Shown: piece after piece, positions 8,557 through 62,009 of the stretch
How the letters are laid out: each line of letters opens with the position of its first letter
Numbering within the stretch: the first letter of the stretch is position 1
Source of the DNA: Zoogloea sp. 1C4
GTDB lineage: Bacteria > Pseudomonadota > Gammaproteobacteria > Burkholderiales > Rhodocyclaceae
Length of the DNA: 62,009 nt
Assembly (NCBI RefSeq): GCF_009469605.1
Contig: NZ_SSXU01000023.1
Location: 1-62,009 of the forward strand
Reading direction: 5' to 3'
Position numbers and translations under genes: made by a program
Notes under the pieces: model-generated
The model's database searches: none
Seen by the model: only the letters and a program-made list of their open reading frames with translations
Told to the model about the DNA's origin: nothing

Positions 8557-8617
8557 TTTTTCCTCCTGGATGCTCCGTGGGAATTCGGGAAAAACCAAAC
8601 AAGACACCAAAATTTAC

Positions 8618-8632
8618 GCATAAACCGTGCCG
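8618..8632 (-). promoter_or_regulatory. Sigma-54-type (-24/-12) promoter of the PEP-CTERM gene
   Basis: On the minus strand the sequence is CGGCACGGTTTATGC, 13 of 15 positions from the TGGCACG-N4-TTGC consensus, with the essential GG and GC dinucleotides 10 bases apart. It lies about 60 bases before the ATG, leaving a leader of about 50 bases. Sigma-54 promoters controlled by the PrsK/PrsR pair are known to accompany PEP-CTERM genes. Confidence 0.65.
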
Positions 8633-8875
8633 AATTTAGAGTTTTTCGGTAGGTCGTCGTTTTTGTTTCGTTTTTGACGTTTGTCGATTCGCTCGGCGTA
8701 GGCGGCCAGATGGGCGGTGTAAAACCGGGCGACACGGCCCCGGGCGGGGCGGGCCGGATTTGCGTGACGGAGTTGGCAGCCGGTGGCCCGATTGTTTCCG
8801 GATCCTTCCATTTCGAATTGCCGCGGCGCTTTGTGAGAGACTTGAACGCTCCACGCCGCCCTCCGTTTTTCCATC

Positions 8876-10672
8876 ATGCAATCCCTGACGACCTTCGCCG
8901 CCCTGTTGCTGGCTTCCGTGCTTTTCGTGCCTTTGTTCAAGCGCGCCGGGCTGGGCACGGTGCTGGGCTACCTGGCGGTGGGCATGCTGATCGGCCCCTA
9001 CGGCGTGAAGCTCGTGCGCGATCCGGACAACCTGCTCCACACCGCCGAACTGGGCGTGGTGCTGCTGCTCTTCGTGATCGGGCTGGAACTCAAGCCGTCG
9101 CGGCTGTGGGCGCTGCGCAAGTCGGTGTTCGGGCTGGGGGCGATGCAGCTCTTCGGGGTGGCGGCGGCGTTGGCGGCGGCGGGCTGGTACACGGGTCTGT
9201 CGCTGTCGGCGGCGGCGCTGGTGGGGATCATCCTGGCCCTGTCGTCCACGGCTTTCGTGCTGCCCACCCTCGCCGAGCGGCGCGAGCTATCCACCCGCTA
9301 CGGGCGGGAGGCCTTTGCGATCCTGCTGTTCCAGGATCTGTCGGTGATTCCGCTGCTGGCGCTGATCCCGCTCTTCGGCACCGGCAAGCCCACCGCGCTC
9401 ACCCATCCGGCGGTGGGCCTGGGGCTGCTGGTGGCGGTGGTGGTGGTGGGGCGGCCGCTCCTCGATCTGCTGTTCCGCCATGTGGCGCGGGTCAATAGCC
9501 GGGAGATGTTCACCGCCGCGGCGCTGGTGACCGTGCTGGGGCTGGCGCTGCTGATGCAGGCGGGCGGGCTGTCCATGTCGCTGGGCGCGTTCATCGCCGG
9601 CGTGCTGCTGGCCGATTCGGAGTTCCGCCACGAGCTGGAGGCGTCCATCGCGCCCTTCCAGGGCTTGCTGCTGGGGCTGTTCTTCATGGCGGTGGGGATG
9701 TCCACCAACCTCACCCTGCTGGTGAAGTTTCCGTGGCAGATCATCGGCCTCACCGCCGGGCTGGTGATGATCAAGATTCTGGTGCTGTACGGCCTGCGCC
9801 GGCTGGTGGGTGGGCCCAAGCTGGGTTCGCGGATGCTGGCGCTGGCGCTGGCCCAGGGCGGCGAGTTTGCCTTCGTGCTGTTTGATGCGGCCCAGTCGTT
9901 CAAGGTGCTGGGCGAGGTGCAGGCCGACAAGCTGACTTTGGTGGTGGCCCTGTCGATGGCGGTGTCGCCGCTGCTGCTGATGTTTGGCGACTGGCTGGCC
10001 CGGCGCGAGGCGGGCCGGCGGCCGCCCAAGGCTTACGACCAGATGCCTTCCGAGGCGAGCGACGTGGTGATCGCCGGTTTCGGCCGGGTCGGCCAGGTGG
10101 TGGGCCGGCTGCTGCTGGCGCGAGGTATCGGCTTCACCGCGCTGGATGCCGACGCCGGGCAGGTGGAGACCGTGCGCAAGTTCGGCTTCAAGGTGTTCTA
10201 CGGCGACGCGGCCCATCTCGATCTGCTCCATGCCGCCCAGGTGGGTGAGGCCAAGGTCTTCGTGCTGGCCATCGACGACGTGGAGGCGTCCCTGCGCACC
10301 GCCGAGCTGGTGAAGAAGCATTTCCCCCATGTGCAGATCGTGGCCCGGGCCCGCAACCGCTTCCACGCCAGCCGGCTGATGGACATGGGGATCGAGCGGC
10401 AGATCCGCGAGGCCCTGCCGTCCAGCCTCGAGATGGCCCGGTGGACGCTGGAGCTCCTCCACGAGCCGCCGGCGCTGGTGGATCAGATGGTGACCCGCTT
10501 TGCCCGCCACGACGCCGAGGTGCTGGCCCGTCAGCAGGCCATCGACCACGACGAGGGCAAGCTCATCCAGTCGTCCAAGGAGGCCCGCGACGAGCTCGTG
10601 CAGATCCTCGAGGAAGCCCGCGAGGCCTTTGCGAAGAAGGAGCGTCCGGCCAAGACGGCCGGCAGGGCCTGA
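8876..10672 (+). CDS. KefB/KefC-type monovalent cation:proton antiporter (CPA2)
   Basis: A 598-residue CPA2-family protein. Residues 1-375 form about twelve hydrophobic segments of the Na+/H+ exchanger fold (GYLAVGMLIGPYGV; LGVVLLLFVIGLELKP). From about 395 a TrkA-N/RCK domain begins with a Rossmann fingerprint (VVIAGFGRVGQVVGRLL) that in relatives senses NAD(H) or glutathione adducts. The last 90 residues are charged and helical. Such proteins export K+ during electrophile stress or serve K+/pH homeostasis. The kefB/kefC assignment is not certain, and no ancillary kefF/kefG gene is adjacent. It ends one base from the convergent asparaginase gene. Confidence 0.88.
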   Translation: MQSLTTFAALLLASVLFVPLFKRAGLGTVLGYLAVGMLIGPYGVKLVRDPDNLLHTAELGVVLLLFVIGLELKPSRLWALRKSVFGLGAMQLFGVAAALAAAGWYTGLSLSAAALVGIILALSSTAFVLPTLAERRELSTRYGREAFAILLFQDLSVIPLLALIPLFGTGKPTALTHPAVGLGLLVAVVVVGRPLLDLLFRHVARVNSREMFTAAALVTVLGLALLMQAGGLSMSLGAFIAGVLLADSEFRHELEASIAPFQGLLLGLFFMAVGMSTNLTLLVKFPWQIIGLTAGLVMIKILVLYGLRRLVGGPKLGSRMLALALAQGGEFAFVLFDAAQSFKVLGEVQADKLTLVVALSMAVSPLLLMFGDWLARREAGRRPPKAYDQMPSEASDVVIAGFGRVGQVVGRLLLARGIGFTALDADAGQVETVRKFGFKVFYGDAAHLDLLHAAQVGEAKVFVLAIDDVEASLRTAELVKKHFPHVQIVARARNRFHASRLMDMGIERQIREALPSSLEMARWTLELLHEPPALVDQMVTRFARHDAEVLARQQAIDHDEGKLIQSSKEARDELVQILEEAREAFAKKERPAKTAGRA

Positions 10673-10673
10673 G

Positions 10674-11579
10674 TCAGTCCGCCTCGAAGGGGCGTTTGCT
10701 GGCGAGGGCCAGCATCAGCGCGATGCGGGCCTTGGGCGGCGGCAGGCTGCTGGCGGTGAGCCAGCCTTCGGCGTCGTCGTCGGCGTTGGCGTTGCGGATC
10801 ACCGGGCCGGCGCAGCGGCTGGCCCGGACGATCACCACCCCTTTCTCCCTGGCCCGGCGTAGCGCCGGCAACCATGCCGACGGCACGCTGCCGTGGCCGG
10901 TGAGGGCCAGCACCAGCCCCCTTGCGCCCTCGGCCACGCAGGCGTCGATCAGCCCGGCCGGCGCGCCGGCGTAGCCGGGCAGGATGTCCACCCGCGGCAG
11001 GGCGTCGGCAGCGAGATCGGCAAAGCGGCCGTCCGGGCGGGCGGTGGTCCAGTCGGCGGACGATTCGAAGGCATCCAGCCCGCTGGTGCGGGCTTTCTGC
11101 AGGTGGCGGGCGGTGTGGATGATGGCGTTCATCACCACCAGCACGCCCTTGTCCCGCGCATCCGGGCGGGCGGCGAGGCGCACCGCGGCGAGCAGGTTGG
11201 CCGGGCCGTCGGCCTGGGGGTGGTCTGCCGGGCGCATGGCGCCGGTGAGCACTACCGGCTTGCCGCCGGGCACGGTGAGCTGCAGGAAATACGCGGTTTC
11301 TTCGAGCGTATCGGTGCCGTGGAGGATCACCACCCCATCCGTTGCCGGATCACCCAGCGCGCGGCGCACCGCGGCGAGGATCGTCAGCCAGCCCTCGGGC
11401 GTCATGTCCTTGCTGTCGAGGGCGAGCACCTGCTCGGCGGAGAGATCGAAGGCGTCGAGGCCCGGCACCGCGGCCAGCAGCGCGCCCACGGGGCGCACGC
11501 CGGCCCGGTAGCGGGCGCCGCCGGATTCCGGATCAGCTTCGCCGGCGATGGTGCCGCCGGTGGCGATGAGATGGATCAT
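10674..11579 (-). CDS. L-asparaginase (cytoplasmic type)
   Basis: A 301-residue asparaginase/glutaminase-family protein hydrolysing asparagine to aspartate and ammonia. The nucleophile motif IATGGTIAG (T10) and second motif HGTDTLEET (87-95, T89/D90) are intact, and GAMRP follows. The start MIHLIATGG at 11579 is chosen because family homology begins there; upstream codons translate the repeat array and look non-coding. No signal peptide is seen, so a cytoplasmic enzyme is likely. No clear ribosome site precedes the start. It lies downstream of gltL on the same strand, beyond the array. Confidence 0.88.
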   Translation of the reverse strand: MIHLIATGGTIAGEADPESGGARYRAGVRPVGALLAAVPGLDAFDLSAEQVLALDSKDMTPEGWLTILAAVRRALGDPATDGVVILHGTDTLEETAYFLQLTVPGGKPVVLTGAMRPADHPQADGPANLLAAVRLAARPDARDKGVLVVMNAIIHTARHLQKARTSGLDAFESSADWTTARPDGRFADLAADALPRVDILPGYAGAPAGLIDACVAEGARGLVLALTGHGSVPSAWLPALRRAREKGVVIVRASRCAGPVIRNANADDDAEGWLTASSLPPPKARIALMLALASKRPFEAD

Positions 11580-11666
11580 GGTCGTGGGGCAGGGGTGCGG
11601 GGGATGGCGCCGAGCATGCCACTGGATGCGGCGGGTTTGAAGCCCGGACCTGCGTGTCTGGACCTC

Positions 11667-11948
11667 AGGGGGACGAGTGGACCTTTGAGGTCGGCGTTTG
11701 CAGGTCTGAGGTCCGATGCTGCACCTAAAAGGTGCAAGCGTGGACCTTGGAGGTCCGACCTTGCGGGTCTGAGCTGCATGTGTGCAGGTCTGAGGTCCGG
11801 CATCGGACCTCCAGGGTGCAGGCGTGCCCAAAAAAGATGCGCGCCTGCACCTCAGCGGTCCGACCTCGGATGTCCGAGGTCCGTGGGTGCAGCCTGGAGG
11901 TTCGACGGTGCACCGCTGAGGGGCATGGCCGGACCTTCGAGGGGTACG
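11667..11948. repeat. Array of degenerate 21-bp palindrome-bearing repeats
   Basis: An AGGT-like core recurs every 21 bases in strict register: 11667, 11688, 11709, 11730, 11751, 11772, 11793, 11814, 11835, 11856, 11877, 11898, 11919 and 11940, about 13 units. Many units are small palindromes with an ACCT-N3-AGGT centre, for example GGACCTTGGAGGTCC (11742-11756) and GCACCTAAAAGGTGC (11721-11735). The 17-mer TGCAGGTCTGAGGTCCG occurs exactly twice (11699, 11783). One plus-strand frame reads as heptapeptides mostly ending in Arg, simply because 21 is a multiple of three. It lies between gltL and the asparaginase gene. Function unknown. Confidence 0.85.
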
Positions 11949-11961
11949 CGCGCCCCTTGGG

Positions 11962-12690
11962 TCAGTGTTGCAGGATCTTCGCCAGGAACTGCTGGGCGCG
12001 CTCGGAGCGCGGGTTGGCGAAGAAGGCTTCCTTGGTGTCGTCCTCGACGATGCGGCCGCGGTCCATGAAGATCACCCGGTTGGCCACCTTGCGCGCAAAG
12101 CCCATCTCGTGGGTCACGCACATCATGGTCATGCCTTCCTGGGCGAGCTCGACCATCACGTCGAGCACCTCGTTGATCATCTCCGGGTCGAGGGCCGAAG
12201 TGGGCTCGTCGAAGAGCATGCAGATCGGGTCCATCGACAGGGCGCGGGCGATTGCCACGCGCTGCTGCTGGCCACCCGAGAGCTGGCCGGGGAACTTGTC
12301 GGCGTGGGCCTTGAGGCCGACCCGGTCGAGCAGCCCCACGCCCTTGGCGCGGGCTTCTTCCTTGCTGCGGCCGAGCACCTTCTCCTGGGCGATGGTGAGG
12401 TTCTCGGTGATGCTCATGTGGGGGAACAGCTCGAAGTGCTGGAAGACCATGCCCACCCGGCTGCGCAGCTTGGGCAGGTTGGTTTTCGGGTCGCCCACCG
12501 AGATGCCGTCCACGTGGATGGTGCCGGACTGGAAGGGTTCGAGGCCATTGACGCACTTGATGAGGGTGGATTTGCCCGAGCCGGACGGCCCGCAGACCAC
12601 CACCACCTCGCCCTTGGCGACCCGGGTGCTGCAGTCGGTGAGCACCTGGAAGCTGCCGTAGTGCTTGGAAACCTTGTCGATCGTGATCAT
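11962..12690 (-). CDS. gltL: Glutamate/aspartate ABC transporter ATP-binding protein
   Basis: A 242-residue polar-amino-acid ABC ATPase. Walker [10 protein letters not shown] (about 34-42), Q-loop region [12 protein letters not shown], signature LSGGQQQR, Walker [15 protein letters not shown] and the switch histidine (CVTHEMGFA) are all intact. It powers uptake through the GltJ/GltK channel. It follows gltK by 12 bases and closes the gltI-J-K-L operon; its stop lies only about 15 bases from the 21-bp repeat array. Confidence 0.94.
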
Positions 12691-12702: not shown

Positions 12703-13386
12703 CTAAACCGTCGCCATCCGCTTCTGCAGCCGCCGCACCACCTGCGACAGGGAGAAGCACAACACGAAATACACCGCGCCCGCAAAGAGCAGCAGCTCCA
12801 CCAGCCGGCCGTCCCGGTCGCCCACCTTGTAGGCCGCGCCGAAGAAATCGGCCAGCGCCGACACATACACCAGCGAGGTGTCCTGGAACAGCACGATGGC
12901 CTGGGTGAGCAGCAGCGGCACCATGTTGCGGAAGGCCTGGGGCAGCACCACCAGGCGCATCGCCTGGGCGTAGGTCATGCCCAGCGCCGAGGCCGCCGAC
13001 ACCTGGCCCTTGGGCACGCTCTGGATGCCGGCGCGGATGATCTCGGAGTAATAGGCCGACTCGAACAGCGCAAAACCCACCATCGCCGAGGTGAGCCGCA
13101 CGTCGGTGTTGGGGTCGAGGTTCAGGAAACCCTTGAGCAGCTGCGGCACGATCAGGAAGAACCACAGCAGCACCATCACCAGCGGGATCGCCCGGAACAG
13201 GTTGACGTAGCCGGCGGCGAACCACGCCAGCGGCTTGATGGTGCCGAGCCGCATCAGCGCCAGCAGGGTGCCCCACACGATGCCGACGATCACCGCGGTG
13301 ACGGTGATCTCCAGCGACACCTTCATGCCCTCCCACAGGAAGGGCAGGGCGCCGGGGATGGAGGACCAGTCGAATTCGTAGTTCAT
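12703..13386 (-). CDS. gltK: Glutamate/aspartate ABC transporter permease GltK
   Basis: A 227-residue inner-membrane permease of the HisM/GltK family, with about five hydrophobic segments and the EAA-type loop near [27 protein letters not shown] that docks on the ATPase. The ATG at 13386 ([12 protein letters not shown]) follows GAGGAGG at good spacing and is preferred to a start eight codons upstream that would overlap gltJ. It forms a heterodimeric channel with GltJ. Confidence 0.93.
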
Positions 13387-13399
13387 CGCATGTGCCTCC

Positions 13400-14140
13400 T
13401 CATTTTCCACCGATATAGCCGGGCACGCGGGTCCGCGCCTCGACCACTCGCATCAGGCTCATCACCACCACGTTGATGAGGAGGTAGAGCACCGTGACAG
13501 CGATGAAGGATTCGTAGGGCTGGGCGGTGTAATCCACCAGCTGGCGGCCCTGGGCGGCGAGCTCGAGCAGGCCGATGGTGGAGCACACCGCGGAGTTCTT
13601 GAAGATGTTGAGGAACTCGGAGGTGAGCGGCGGCACGATCAGCCGGAAGGCCATCGGCAGCAGCACGTGGCGGTAGGTCTGGCCGAGGGTGAAGCCCAGC
13701 GCGAGCCCGGCGTTCTTCTGGCCGCGGGGCAGGGCGTCGATGCCCGAGCGCACCTGCTCGCACACCCGCGCGCTGGTGAAGAAGGCCAGGCACACCATCG
13801 CCGCGACGAACTGCTGGGTGACGGGATTGAGCTTCTGCTTGAAGGCATCGCCCAGCCCGAAGGGCAGCAGCTCGGGCAGCACGAAATACCAGATGAAGAG
13901 CTGCACCAGCAGCGGGATGTTGCGGAAGACCTCCACGTAAGCGCCGGCGAACCGGGACAGACCCTTGTGGGGCACGGTGCGCAGCACCCCCATCAGGCTG
14001 CCCAGCAACAGGGCGATCACCCACGCCGAGAGGGACAGGGCCACGGTGGTCTGCAGCCCGGCGAGCATCCACCCGAGATAGGTGGTCTCACCGGTCGGCA
14101 CCGGGCTCGAGAAGATGCTCCAGTTCCAGTTGTAGCTCAT
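13400..14140 (-). CDS. gltJ: Glutamate/aspartate ABC transporter permease GltJ
   Basis: A 246-residue membrane permease whose opening [13 protein letters not shown] matches the GltJ family. It has about five hydrophobic spans and the EAA loop ([28 protein letters not shown]). It pairs with GltK and lies between gltI and gltK. No Shine-Dalgarno sequence precedes the ATG: the 14 bases before it come from a C-rich intergenic tract that may pair with an upstream G-rich tract, so translation may be limited or structure-dependent. Confidence 0.93.
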
Positions 14141-14146
14141 GGCTTG

Positions 14147-14253
14147 GTGGGAAGTGGGAGGTGGAAAGTGGGTAATGGGGAGTGGGCGGTGGGAGGTCGG
14201 GAAGGGGGCTCTGCCCTACTCCCTACTTCCCATCACCCTCTACCCATTTCCCT
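14147..14253 (-). repeat. Purine/pyrimidine asymmetric hairpin element between gltI and gltJ
   Basis: On the plus strand about 60 bases are almost only G and A, with many GGG runs (14147-14208). About 40 C/T-rich bases follow (14211-14253). On the minus-strand transcript the G-rich part comes first and its complement follows, so a long imperfect hairpin spanning the gltI stop and the gltJ start region can form; the GGG runs could alternatively make G-quadruplexes. Such a structure after a binding-protein gene often stabilises the upstream message. Confidence 0.6.
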
Positions 14254-15147
14254 TTACTCGAACGGCTTGTCGTTGGGCGTCTTGTAGAGCTTGAGCATGG
14301 CGTCGGAGAGCGGGAAGTTGAGGTTCAGGCCCTTGGGCGGGATGGGCTGGGTGAACCACTTCTTGTAGATGGCTTCGGCTTCGCCGGAGGTCATGGCCTT
14401 GGCCAGCGCGGTGTCGACCACTTTCTTGAAGCCCGGATCATCCTTGCGCATCATGCAGCCGTAGGCTTCGAAGCTCTGGGGCGTACCGACCACGGCCCAG
14501 TCGCCGGGCTTCTTGGCCTTGGCAAGCTCGCCGTAGAGCAGGGCGTCGTCCATCATGAAGGCGACGGCGCGGCCGGTCTCCAGCGTGAGGAAGGCTTCGC
14601 CGTGATCCTTGGCGGAGATGATGTTCATGCCGAGCTTCTTGTCCTCGTTCATCTTGCGGATGAGGCGCTCGGAAGTGGTGCCGGCGGTGGTCACCACGTT
14701 CTTGCCGGCGAGATCCGGGAAGTCCTTCACGCCGGAATCCTTCTTGGTCATCAGGCGCGTGCCGATGATGAAGATGGTGTTGGAGAAGGCCACCTGGCGG
14801 GCGCGTTCGGTGTTGTTGGTGGTCGAGCCGCACTCGATGTCGATGGTGCCGTTCTGGACGAGGGGGATGCGGTTCTGGGAGGTGACCGGCGTGAGCTTGG
14901 TCTGGATGCTGGCGAGCTTGAGTTCGGTCTTCACGGCGTCGACCACCTTCAGCATCAGCTCCTGGCTGTAGCCCACCACCTGCTGCTTGTCGTCGTAGTA
15001 CGAGAAGGGGATCGAGGATTCCCGGTGGCCGAGGGCGATGGTGCCGGTTTCCTTGATCTTCTTGAGGGTCGGCGACTCCTGAGCCAGCACCGGTTGGGCC
15101 AGCAGGACTGCGGTGGTGACAAGGGCGAGTTTGGAAAGACGGGACAT
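14254..15147 (-). CDS. gltI: Glutamate/aspartate periplasmic-binding protein
   Basis: A 297-residue solute-binding protein (SBP family 3). Signal peptide MSRLSKLALVTTAVLLAQPVLAQ (cleavage about 22/23). The mature protein has the family motifs GTIALGHRESSIPFSYYD and GTIDIECGSTTNNTERA, typical of GltI, which binds glutamate and aspartate in the periplasm and delivers them to GltJK. It is the first gene of the operon and is separated from gltJ by the structured 107-base element, which could give a higher dose of binding protein than of permease. Confidence 0.94.
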   Translation of the reverse strand: MSRLSKLALVTTAVLLAQPVLAQESPTLKKIKETGTIALGHRESSIPFSYYDDKQQVVGYSQELMLKVVDAVKTELKLASIQTKLTPVTSQNRIPLVQNGTIDIECGSTTNNTERARQVAFSNTIFIIGTRLMTKKDSGVKDFPDLAGKNVVTTAGTTSERLIRKMNEDKKLGMNIISAKDHGEAFLTLETGRAVAFMMDDALLYGELAKAKKPGDWAVVGTPQSFEAYGCMMRKDDPGFKKVVDTALAKAMTSGEAEAIYKKWFTQPIPPKGLNLNFPLSDAMLKLYKTPNDKPFE

Positions 15148-60694: not shown

Positions 60695-60902
60695 CGCTGT
60701 CTCCTATGGGCTGTGTGAATAAAGATACAGTTTGCGCGATATTATCATTGGGTATGTGGTATGGGAATATTGCACATGCATTGTGGGTGGGTTTTGCGGT
60801 GCGCCGATGTTCTGCCGACAGCACCCTTGTGGGCGGGTGCGTAGCTGGAAGCGGGCAGATTGCGTGCTTTGTGCGGGTGGGTGGATATGCTTTCACAGCG
60901 CC

Positions 60903-61112
60903 TGTAGATCGATGTGCACGGTGTGTTGATGATCTACACGAGGGTGTAGATCGATGTTCACAGGGTGTAGATCGATGTTCGCCGGGTGTAGATCGATGTT
61001 CACGAGGTGTATTCGATCTACACCAGCCTGTATTCGATTGTTCACGACGTGTAGATCATCAACACCCGCGTGATGAACGATTCACACCCGTGAATGAAGC
61101 ATTCGCAGCCCT
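60903..61112. repeat. Second array of 21-bp palindrome-bearing repeats
   Basis: Ten contiguous 21-base units, in register, with the form TGTAGATCGATGTTCACAGGG. Units at 60903, 60945, 60966 and 60987 are nearly identical; those at 60924, 61008, 61050 and 61071 carry parts of the unit inverted (GATCTACAC for GTGTAGATC), so neighbours form hairpins such as GATCTACACGAGGGTGTAGATC-like folds (60931-60952). A degenerate unit may precede at about 60882. No spacers, so it is not a CRISPR. One frame gives heptapeptides (VDRCSQG and the like) only because 21 is a multiple of three. Confidence 0.88.
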
Positions 61113-61164: not shown

Positions 61165-61225
61165 GTCGGACTTCAGTCCGACAACGCCCCCGGTGTCCCC
61201 GGCCATCGTGTCGGACTGAAGTCCG
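61165..61225. repeat. Inverted pair of REP-like palindromes (REPIN-like)
   Basis: GTCGGACTTCAGTCCGAC (61165-61182) and its inverted copy GTCGGACTGAAGTCCG (61210-61225) are separated by 27 bases. Two REP palindromes facing each other is the layout of a REPIN/BIME, mobilised in trans by REP-associated (RAYT) transposases. No RAYT gene is in the window. Confidence 0.75.
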
Positions 61226-61511
61226 TATATGGACTCCTCCCGTTTTGCCAGCGCGAATGTTGGACAACAAGGGGATCGATTGCTCACGTATATCCGGCCT
61301 CCTGGTTGGGCGTAGTGGCCCGGGCCATGATGAGTTATCCGCGCGTCTGCTCCTGATCGACCTAGCGTGCTCGGTGGCACATCGGACTTTGAAGGGTTTT
61401 CAGACGCCGATTCGATCAGTTTGTCATCGGCGATTCTAGCTGGGCAATCGTGAGGAAGGGGCACCTCCTTAAACCGTCATCACAGGTAAATGGCTTGGGC
61501 GCCGGCCCGCT
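61226..61511. other. Intergenic stretch, no gene seen (286 bases)
   Basis: Between the REP pair and the IS110-type transposase gene. Short overlapping open frames occur in several frames but none has a ribosome site or recognisable protein. It presumably includes the left end of the IS110-family element, whose boundary cannot be set because this family lacks clear terminal repeats. Confidence 0.5.
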
Positions 61512-62009
61512 TCAGGCCGGCTCGGGCGGCGTCGCGTGGCCGTGCAGCGGGTCGTAGTCTTCCTCGCGCCTCAGCAGCACCCAGGCCAGGCGCATGGTCT
61601 TGTTGGCCAGCGCCACCGCCGCCACGTTCTTGTTGCGCCGGGCGCACAGGCCCTGCAGCCACAGGCTCAACGGGTCGGTCTTGTCGCGGGCCGCTCGCAG
61701 CGCCGCGCGCGCACCGTGGATCAGCAGGGTGCGCAGGTAGGTGTCGCCCCGTTTGCTGATGCCCAGCAAGGTCTGCTTGCCCCCGCTGCTGTGCTGACCC
61801 GGGACCAGCCCGGCCCAGGCCGAGGCCTGGCGGCCATGCGTGAATTGCCGCCCATCCCCCAGCGCCGCGATCAGCGCCGTGGCCACCAGCGGACCGACGC
61901 CGCGCAGTTGCTGCAGACGTCGGGCGCTGGGGTGGGTGCGCGCCAGCGCCTCGATGGCTTTGTCCTCGGTCTTGATCCGCTCGTCCAGATACACCAGATC
62001 GTCGCGCAG
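61512..62009 (-). CDS. IS110-family transposase, C-terminal part (window edge)
   Basis: At least 165 residues of the C-terminal Transposase_20 (IS116/IS110/IS902) domain. It shows the helix-hairpin-helix-like RLQQLRGVGPLVATALIAALGD and the conserved FTHGRQASAWAGLVPGQHSSGGK followed by LGISKRGDTYLRTLLIHGARA. IS110 elements use a DEDD catalytic site and a bridge RNA. The N-terminal DEDD domain lies beyond base 62009. The frame is open to the window edge. Confidence 0.9.
   Translation of the reverse strand: MRDDLVYLDERIKTEDKAIEALARTHPSARRLQQLRGVGPLVATALIAALGDGRQFTHGRQASAWAGLVPGQHSSGGKQTLLGISKRGDTYLRTLLIHGARAALRAARDKTDPLSLWLQGLCARRNKNVAAVALANKTMRLAWVLLRREEDYDPLHGHATPPEPA

Follow-up and report, generated by a model that had tools for sequence, protein, structure and literature searches.

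A family of 21-bp-phased arrays of inverted half-sites in Zoogloea, with a member between gltL and an asparaginase gene

The array between gltL and the asparaginase gene

The window (the whole 62,009-nt stretch of Zoogloea DNA analysed here) carries two arrays of degenerate 21-bp units, one of which, the focal array, lies between two minus-strand genes. The features concerned are:

10674..11579, minus strand: asparaginase, 301 aa (PF00710, PF17763), with its start 69 bases from the array
11580..11648, no strand: non-array leader between the array and the asparaginase start; the alignment with L085 (see below) ends inside it, at 11607
11649..11948, no strand: focal array of class II half-sites, about 14 units of 21 bp, the first weak
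11962..12690, minus strand: ABC transporter ATPase, 242 aa (PF00005), called gltL from its place in the transporter operon
12703..15147, minus strand: remainder of the transporter operon, with two permease genes (one tested, PF00528) and a gene for a family 3 solute-binding protein (PF00497)
60902..61110, no strand: second 21-bp array, of class III half-sites (z 13.5)

The gltL stop codon occupies 11962-11964 on the minus strand, which leaves 13 bases to the array end at 11948; the original prediction had put the array about 15 bases beyond this stop. Degenerate 28-bp and 14-bp repeats occur at 14147-14257, upstream of the solute-binding protein gene.

The strict 21-bp phasing that had been predicted is borne out. 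Mean identity at lags of 21, 42, 63 and 84 over 11649-11948 is 0.508 (quoted as 0.51), well above the 0.277 obtained from 2000 first-order Markov shuffles of the same stretch (sd 0.017, maximum 0.343; z 13.8), and a leave-one-out profile test places 13 of the 14 units at shift 0. The left edge of the array is soft, because the first unit (11655) prefers a shift of +2 and has just 3 of its 10 positions paired. When periods of 15-30 were scanned across the window, the two top places for period 21 were the two arrays (0.56 and 0.57); periods 18, 24 and 30 peak too (0.52), near 18.2 kb, and these peaks are taken as coding sequence. The units of the focal array are about 50% alike, yet strictly in phase, and the view that simple slippage does not account for them holds. 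A CRISPR test of the array found no constant repeat, the units not being near-identical with unique spacers.

Read from the outside towards the axis, the half-site is about yG[C/G]ACCTy, in alternating orientation. Among the 28 half-sites, position 3 is G in 24, position 5 is A in 22 and positions 6-8 are C, C and T in 20, 22 and 22, respectively. Position 4 is two-state (C in 15, G in 11), and positions 2-4 read TGC in 12, CGG in eight and TGG in two. The ACCT-N3-AGGT palindromes that were said to be many are exact in only three places (11681, 11723 and 11744); the dyad symmetry itself stands at the level of the consensus, and the palindrome is a property of that consensus.

The second array contains half-sites of the types GTGTAGATC, GTGAACA, GTGTTGAT and GTGTATTC, and one unit near its end appears by eye to be 20 bp long. 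It is adjoined by a pair of REP-like palindromes of the TCGGACTTCAGTCCGA type (61166-61181 and 61211-61226), a type that also occurs after gltL in L038 and L053. A partial IS110-type transposase (PF02371) lies at 61512-61994, close to the second array and to the window end.

The focal array was probably gained in this lineage, since the asparaginase gene comes directly after gltL in eleven congener loci, none of which has an array; 23 gltL loci were fetched, and the downstream DNA was inspected for 20, own locus included. Asparaginase lies within about 35 bases, with no repeat, in ten of the eleven and after REP-like palindromes in L038, and in these loci the gap is too short for an array. A second comparison is provided by L085, a named Zoogloea MAG record with an array beside asparaginase, possibly from the same genome as G017. 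It matches the window at 94.5% identity from 10001 to 11607, where the alignment ends at the array edge. Past this end, L085 (its positions 8603-9940) carries a nitroreductase gene and a class V array in the place taken by the glt transporter operon in other Zoogloea, and its genome gave no gltL relative at E 1e-50 (in a separate search, the same query matched 18 of 23 genomes at 1e-80). As judged from this alignment, the edge of the focal array is also a rearrangement boundary, since the match stops there and other genes lie beyond.

A family of arrays in Zoogloea

The focal array is one member of a mostly intergenic Zoogloea array family, the existence of which is well supported. Twenty arrays and a short 21st, in five half-site classes, come from seven Zoogloea genomes (own included) and the one named record: six from the own genome (G000), one each from G017, L085 and G003, two from G012 and three each from G005, G013 and G014, with one of the G014 arrays truncated where its contig stops. 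The short array, in G005 (L107 718-864), has about six units (identity at lags 21/42 of 0.567 against 0.260, z 7.3). Their shared unit consists of two inverted half-sites spaced by about 10.5 bp, not of one hairpin sequence. Sorted by eye, the half-site classes are:

Class I: RTGACAAAA
Class II: TGGACCT/TGCACCT/TGGCAGT
Class III: GTGTAGATC and relatives
Class IV: TGCACTT/GGAGCTC
Class V: TGAGATTG/TGCGAATC

Within the own genome, the two window arrays match further arrays at C31:89.1k, C107:247.5k and C47:38.3k, and a scan of fetched own-genome stretches gave a sixth at C107:234.7k. The six thus occupy six places on four contigs (C57, C31, C107 and C47) and include at least three half-site classes. 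With the focal array as query, a search of the genus hit G017 besides the own genome (2 of 23), and with a class I query array from G013 it hit seven of 23, five of which (G003, G005, G012, G013 and G014) are judged to carry arrays. The class I matches in L063, L064, L074 and L078 are not arrays, and the low score of L066 in this check reflects a contig that starts inside the array. Palindrome-only scans were too noisy, so a periodicity criterion was added; a lag-identity scan at 0.43 overlooked the G005 array beside asparaginase.

Across 17 arrays, 217 of 230 units sit at shift 0, in a register chosen to maximise symmetry, which leans the result towards 0. The array of G013 at the asparaginase locus, which has one 22-bp unit, is outside the 17. 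A scan of 1.7 Mb at periods 12-42 gave eight noncoding matches at period 21, all array-like, and none at periods 19, 20, 22, 23, 25 and 26; the gene filter, which called 70% coding, removed the focal array itself. The noncoding matches at periods 18, 24, 27, 30, 33, 36 and 39 (2, 6, 8, 4, 16, 12 and 9, respectively) are taken as coding sequence that the filter missed. Periods 14, 28 and 35 return the C31 array, period 42 includes arrays, periods 16 and 40 are a slippage array, and period 32 comprises one slippage array and one further match. An ordinary slippage array of about 15 identical, non-palindromic 16-bp tandem repeats is present at L107 6996-7337 (G005:C109), where it adjoins palindromes of the GGGCGAATGAATTCGCCC kind.

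Beyond the genus, 684 kb drawn from other genera of the family, a small sample scanned under strict limits, yielded no array. In 284 kb of it no period-21 match exceeded 0.97, a limit that would miss the second array of the window (0.95), and 22 weaker matches exceeded 0.86; in the other 400 kb none exceeded 0.93. In 400 kb of G006 only a C/G-rich low-complexity stretch was above 0.97. At L123 2374-2808 (G006:C7), a long G run accompanies a C/G-rich low-complexity stretch, perhaps as an assembly artefact. Class III DNA matched only its own genome in a set of 71 genomes of the family that included just one other Zoogloea. The exact class I palindrome gave no match in 399 genomes of the order, own genome included, a result uninformative on the other classes. 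The focal array gave no blastn match in plasmid and phage collections. A class I-like palindrome pattern occurs in three stretches of viral contigs, with no array around the palindrome, and two of these have loose-setting matches elsewhere in them (0.855 and 0.917); two further patterns gave no match in the viral contigs.

Turnover of the arrays and the nature of their units

A coding heptapeptide repeat, 21 bp being seven codons, can be almost dismissed as an explanation. At least one stop-free frame is found in 14 of the 18 arrays translated, but the frame and the strand vary from one array to the next, the asparaginase-locus array of G013 is interrupted by stops in every frame, unlike its orthologues in G005 and G014, and changes follow dyad symmetry. 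The protein-coding reading was rejected on the inconsistency of frame and strand, and the focal region shows no sign of a conserved protein-coding gene.

The arrays could instead act in RNA, being transcribed past a stop codon as a chain of short hairpins that would protect the 3' end or stop transcription, a role proposed for REP/BIME elements and hairpin clusters, although this seems unlikely. Ten of 17 arrays are no more than 67 bases from the 3' end of a gene, as placed by a crude gene finder with some wrong orientation labels (the window rows and C107:247k overlap spurious frames). A 3'-end role is not general, however, because a class I array lies upstream of one gene in several species (G003, G005 and G012). 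The product of this gene starts with MAKxYYMPKDD, and no Pfam family was found for the one member tested:

L171 8984-9664, L172 from 8311 and L173 from 5791: MAKxYYMPKDD-start protein family, class I array upstream

DNA homology places the G013:C22 and G014:C129 arrays at this gene too. The predicted folding energy of the focal stretch is far lower than that of dinucleotide shuffles (z -6.5 on the minus strand, -8.5 on the plus strand), and over 19 rows the folding energy is lower than that of unit-permuted (Stouffer -4.2) and half-permuted (-4.9) versions, with 40 permutations each and three of the rows being orthologues. Against an RNA role, the focal array itself scores 0.05 and -0.65 in these two permutations, no excess, so its folding stems from the shared palindromic consensus. 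There is also no terminator-like site (GC-rich stem and T run) in 11400-12200, and a search of nine loci covering array classes I, II and III against Rfam 15 gave nothing at gathering score, the sole match having 19.4 bits against 162 required. Nor would an RNA element give a reason for exactly 21 bp.

The two arms of the units bear on the same question. When right arms are re-dealt among units (19 rows for 18 arrays, one being in two parts), arm matching within units of the focal array is 5.07 of 10 against 5.05 (p 0.52); as arms match no better within units than between them, the focal unit is a pair of half-sites rather than one hairpin sequence. Fourteen of the 19 rows lack significance at 0.01. 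The remaining five show an excess (p 0.0002 to 0.0044), namely C47, C107:234k and the asparaginase-locus arrays of G005, G014 and G013, three orthologous rows, with the G013 excess in the second part of the array (first part, p 0.31). Combined over rows, z is 4.7 for the axis within the unit (axis A) and 1.5 for that between units (axis B). Arrays whose arms do match could have a role as RNA.

A further alternative is a REP array, decayed or active, spread by a RAYT (Y1) transposase. The original prediction had allowed for a decayed transposable or REP-like element, which is not supported, and REP origin in either form is now very improbable. REP-like palindromes do adjoin the second array, and the genus gave 16 Y1 matches, two of them at about 1.7 and 3.5 kb from an array (G003:C83 and G012:C3). 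However, by eye these Y1 genes adjoin repeats of another kind, and their proximity is judged to be chance. G005, G013 and G014 have class I arrays but no Y1 match at E 0.001, and the two Y1 matches of the own genome are on contigs C118 and C64, with none on the array contigs C57, C31, C107 and C47. The focal array lacks GTAG (0 and 0 on the two strands; CGTC 0 and 2; GTGG 3 and 0); in class III arrays GTAG is present but, by eye, inside the palindrome arms. Whole-array queries return arrays, single units being too short for dispersed-copy searches. Orthologous arrays elsewhere in the genus, moreover, look maintained rather than decaying.

At orthologous loci of other species, phase and grammar are preserved while the letters turn over. 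The asparaginase/antiporter locus has orthologous arrays in G005, G013 and G014 and none in G012, and a loss of about two units sets G014 apart from the other two species. With a three-way majority as reference and 20 unresolved positions excluded, substitutions broke 33 axis-A pairs against 44.3 at random (p 0.026, 0.112 and 0.274 per species) and made 25 against 12.3 expected (p 0.151, <0.001 and 0.079). Gains of axis-B pairs are above random in one species only (13 against 6.2, p 0.004; 5 against 5.4 and 5 against 4.1 in the other two). Periodicity is preserved with p values of 0.167, 0.001 and 0.025. Compensatory double changes number 5, 4 and 3 on axis A, against 1.3, 1.9 and 1.4 (p 0.003, 0.12 and 0.18), and 0, 4 and 0 on axis B, against 1.8, 2.1 and 1.5.

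A second view of turnover is given by the orthologous arrays G013:C13 and G014:C120, which differ at 29% of 336 positions without a gap. At the 94 changed half-site positions, the letters fit a profile made from 180 half-sites of G003, G005 and G012 (z 5.5 and 2.4), and the differences are spread over half-sites near-binomially, not in blocks (variance 2.25 against 2.07). Of 17 flanking windows of 150 bp, 11 have identities of 0.94-0.99 and six of 0.71-0.93; fast change is not confined to the array, because a short non-array stretch before it is also strongly diverged. At a second locus of the same pair, identity is 92.6% across 217 bp of array sequence and 95.7% across the larger block.

Some of these features would be expected of a functionless satellite-like array, in which units would arise by 21-bp tandem duplication, and template switching between inverted half-sites would keep the alphabet small and the length constant. 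Half-sites cluster into sub-types beyond column shuffling in all 12 arrays tested, and copying of half-sites within an array could in this way mimic selection. The axis-A compensatory changes, the loss of about two units at the asparaginase/antiporter locus and the variable presence of arrays at a given locus between species point the same way. What such a process leaves unexplained is the 21 bp common to all classes, unless there was one ancestral array, and the gapless, near-binomial differences between G013:C13 and G014:C120 tell against it. A satellite origin is a reasonable second candidate, although doubtful on balance.

The arrays may best be explained as phased sites for a putative cooperatively binding protein, a reading given a probability of about 0.4 and favoured over a satellite and then over an RNA hairpin array. 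Its basis is the combination of phase, symmetry and grammar at the DNA level, with sites in helical register that share a half-site profile. Inverted half-sites every 10.5 bp or so would bring a two-fold site to the same face of the helix every 21 bp. Each unit could then be the site of a dimeric DNA-binding protein of relaxed specificity, with dimers bound side by side along the array, which might be a platform with an architectural or insulating role. With three or more half-site classes in the own genome, either several proteins would be needed or recognition would have to be very loose, and a pure half-site model does not predict the matched arms (five of 19 rows; z 4.7 over all). The slight signal around axis B (z 1.5, with gains above random in one of three species) and the variation between species in whether a locus has an array also count against this reading. 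Rather more tentatively, the arrays could be a new kind of bacterial chromosomal element, in which inverted half-sites form ladders of constant 10.5/21 bp spacing, with letters variable within a grammar. If so, the inherited trait would be the architecture, not the sequence, and the ladder would offer a platform, phased to the helix, for a DNA-binding protein that forms filaments or arrays, protein and sites co-evolving species by species.

Comparison with known systems

The arrays of plasmid iterons and centromeres are tandem protein sites spaced about one or two helical turns apart. The Zoogloea arrays differ in being palindromic and in lying at six loci spread over four contigs of a single assembly; the focal array is flanked by transporter and asparaginase genes, and blastn matched it to nothing in the plasmid and phage collections. 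In satellite-type tandem repeats, units are more alike within an array than expected by chance. In contrast, the units here are about 50% alike in strict phase, and turnover in one species pair is gapless.

Within the literature covered, from which subscription journals are largely absent, no description was recognised as that of such arrays, and REP families come nearest. This agrees, as far as that coverage and Rfam extend, with the original statement that no named repeat class has this form. REP/BIME elements of the GTAG and CGTC super-families, as set out in the available part of PMC3733652, are short, mostly intergenic palindromes, clustered and with several families per genome, all of which is also true of the Zoogloea arrays. 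Unlike the elements of that account, the focal array lacks GTAG, its units are symmetric and they keep one fixed 21-bp phase, and the Zoogloea arrays mix half-site variants and come without an identified cognate Y1 transposase (PMC3733652). The Thauera GTAG-1 elements, found via a tandem repeat database, are clustered with 5-bp stems; they are set apart from the focal array by the tag, period being no part of the comparison (PMC3733652). Clusters of hairpins acting as intrinsic terminators share with the arrays contiguous short stems downstream of stop codons, but in the available text of PMC8355165 they are described without a fixed period or shared grammar, and the focal locus has no terminator-like site.

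Bacterial intergenic repeats are usually recognised by their sequence. Here, spacing and dyad symmetry persist with up to 29% of letters differing between related species, and sequence searches miss such elements for this reason. If a protein reads the arrays, they would constitute a species-specific chromosome-structuring system; if none does, they would be a clear example, in bacteria, of a satellite evolving at constant unit length.
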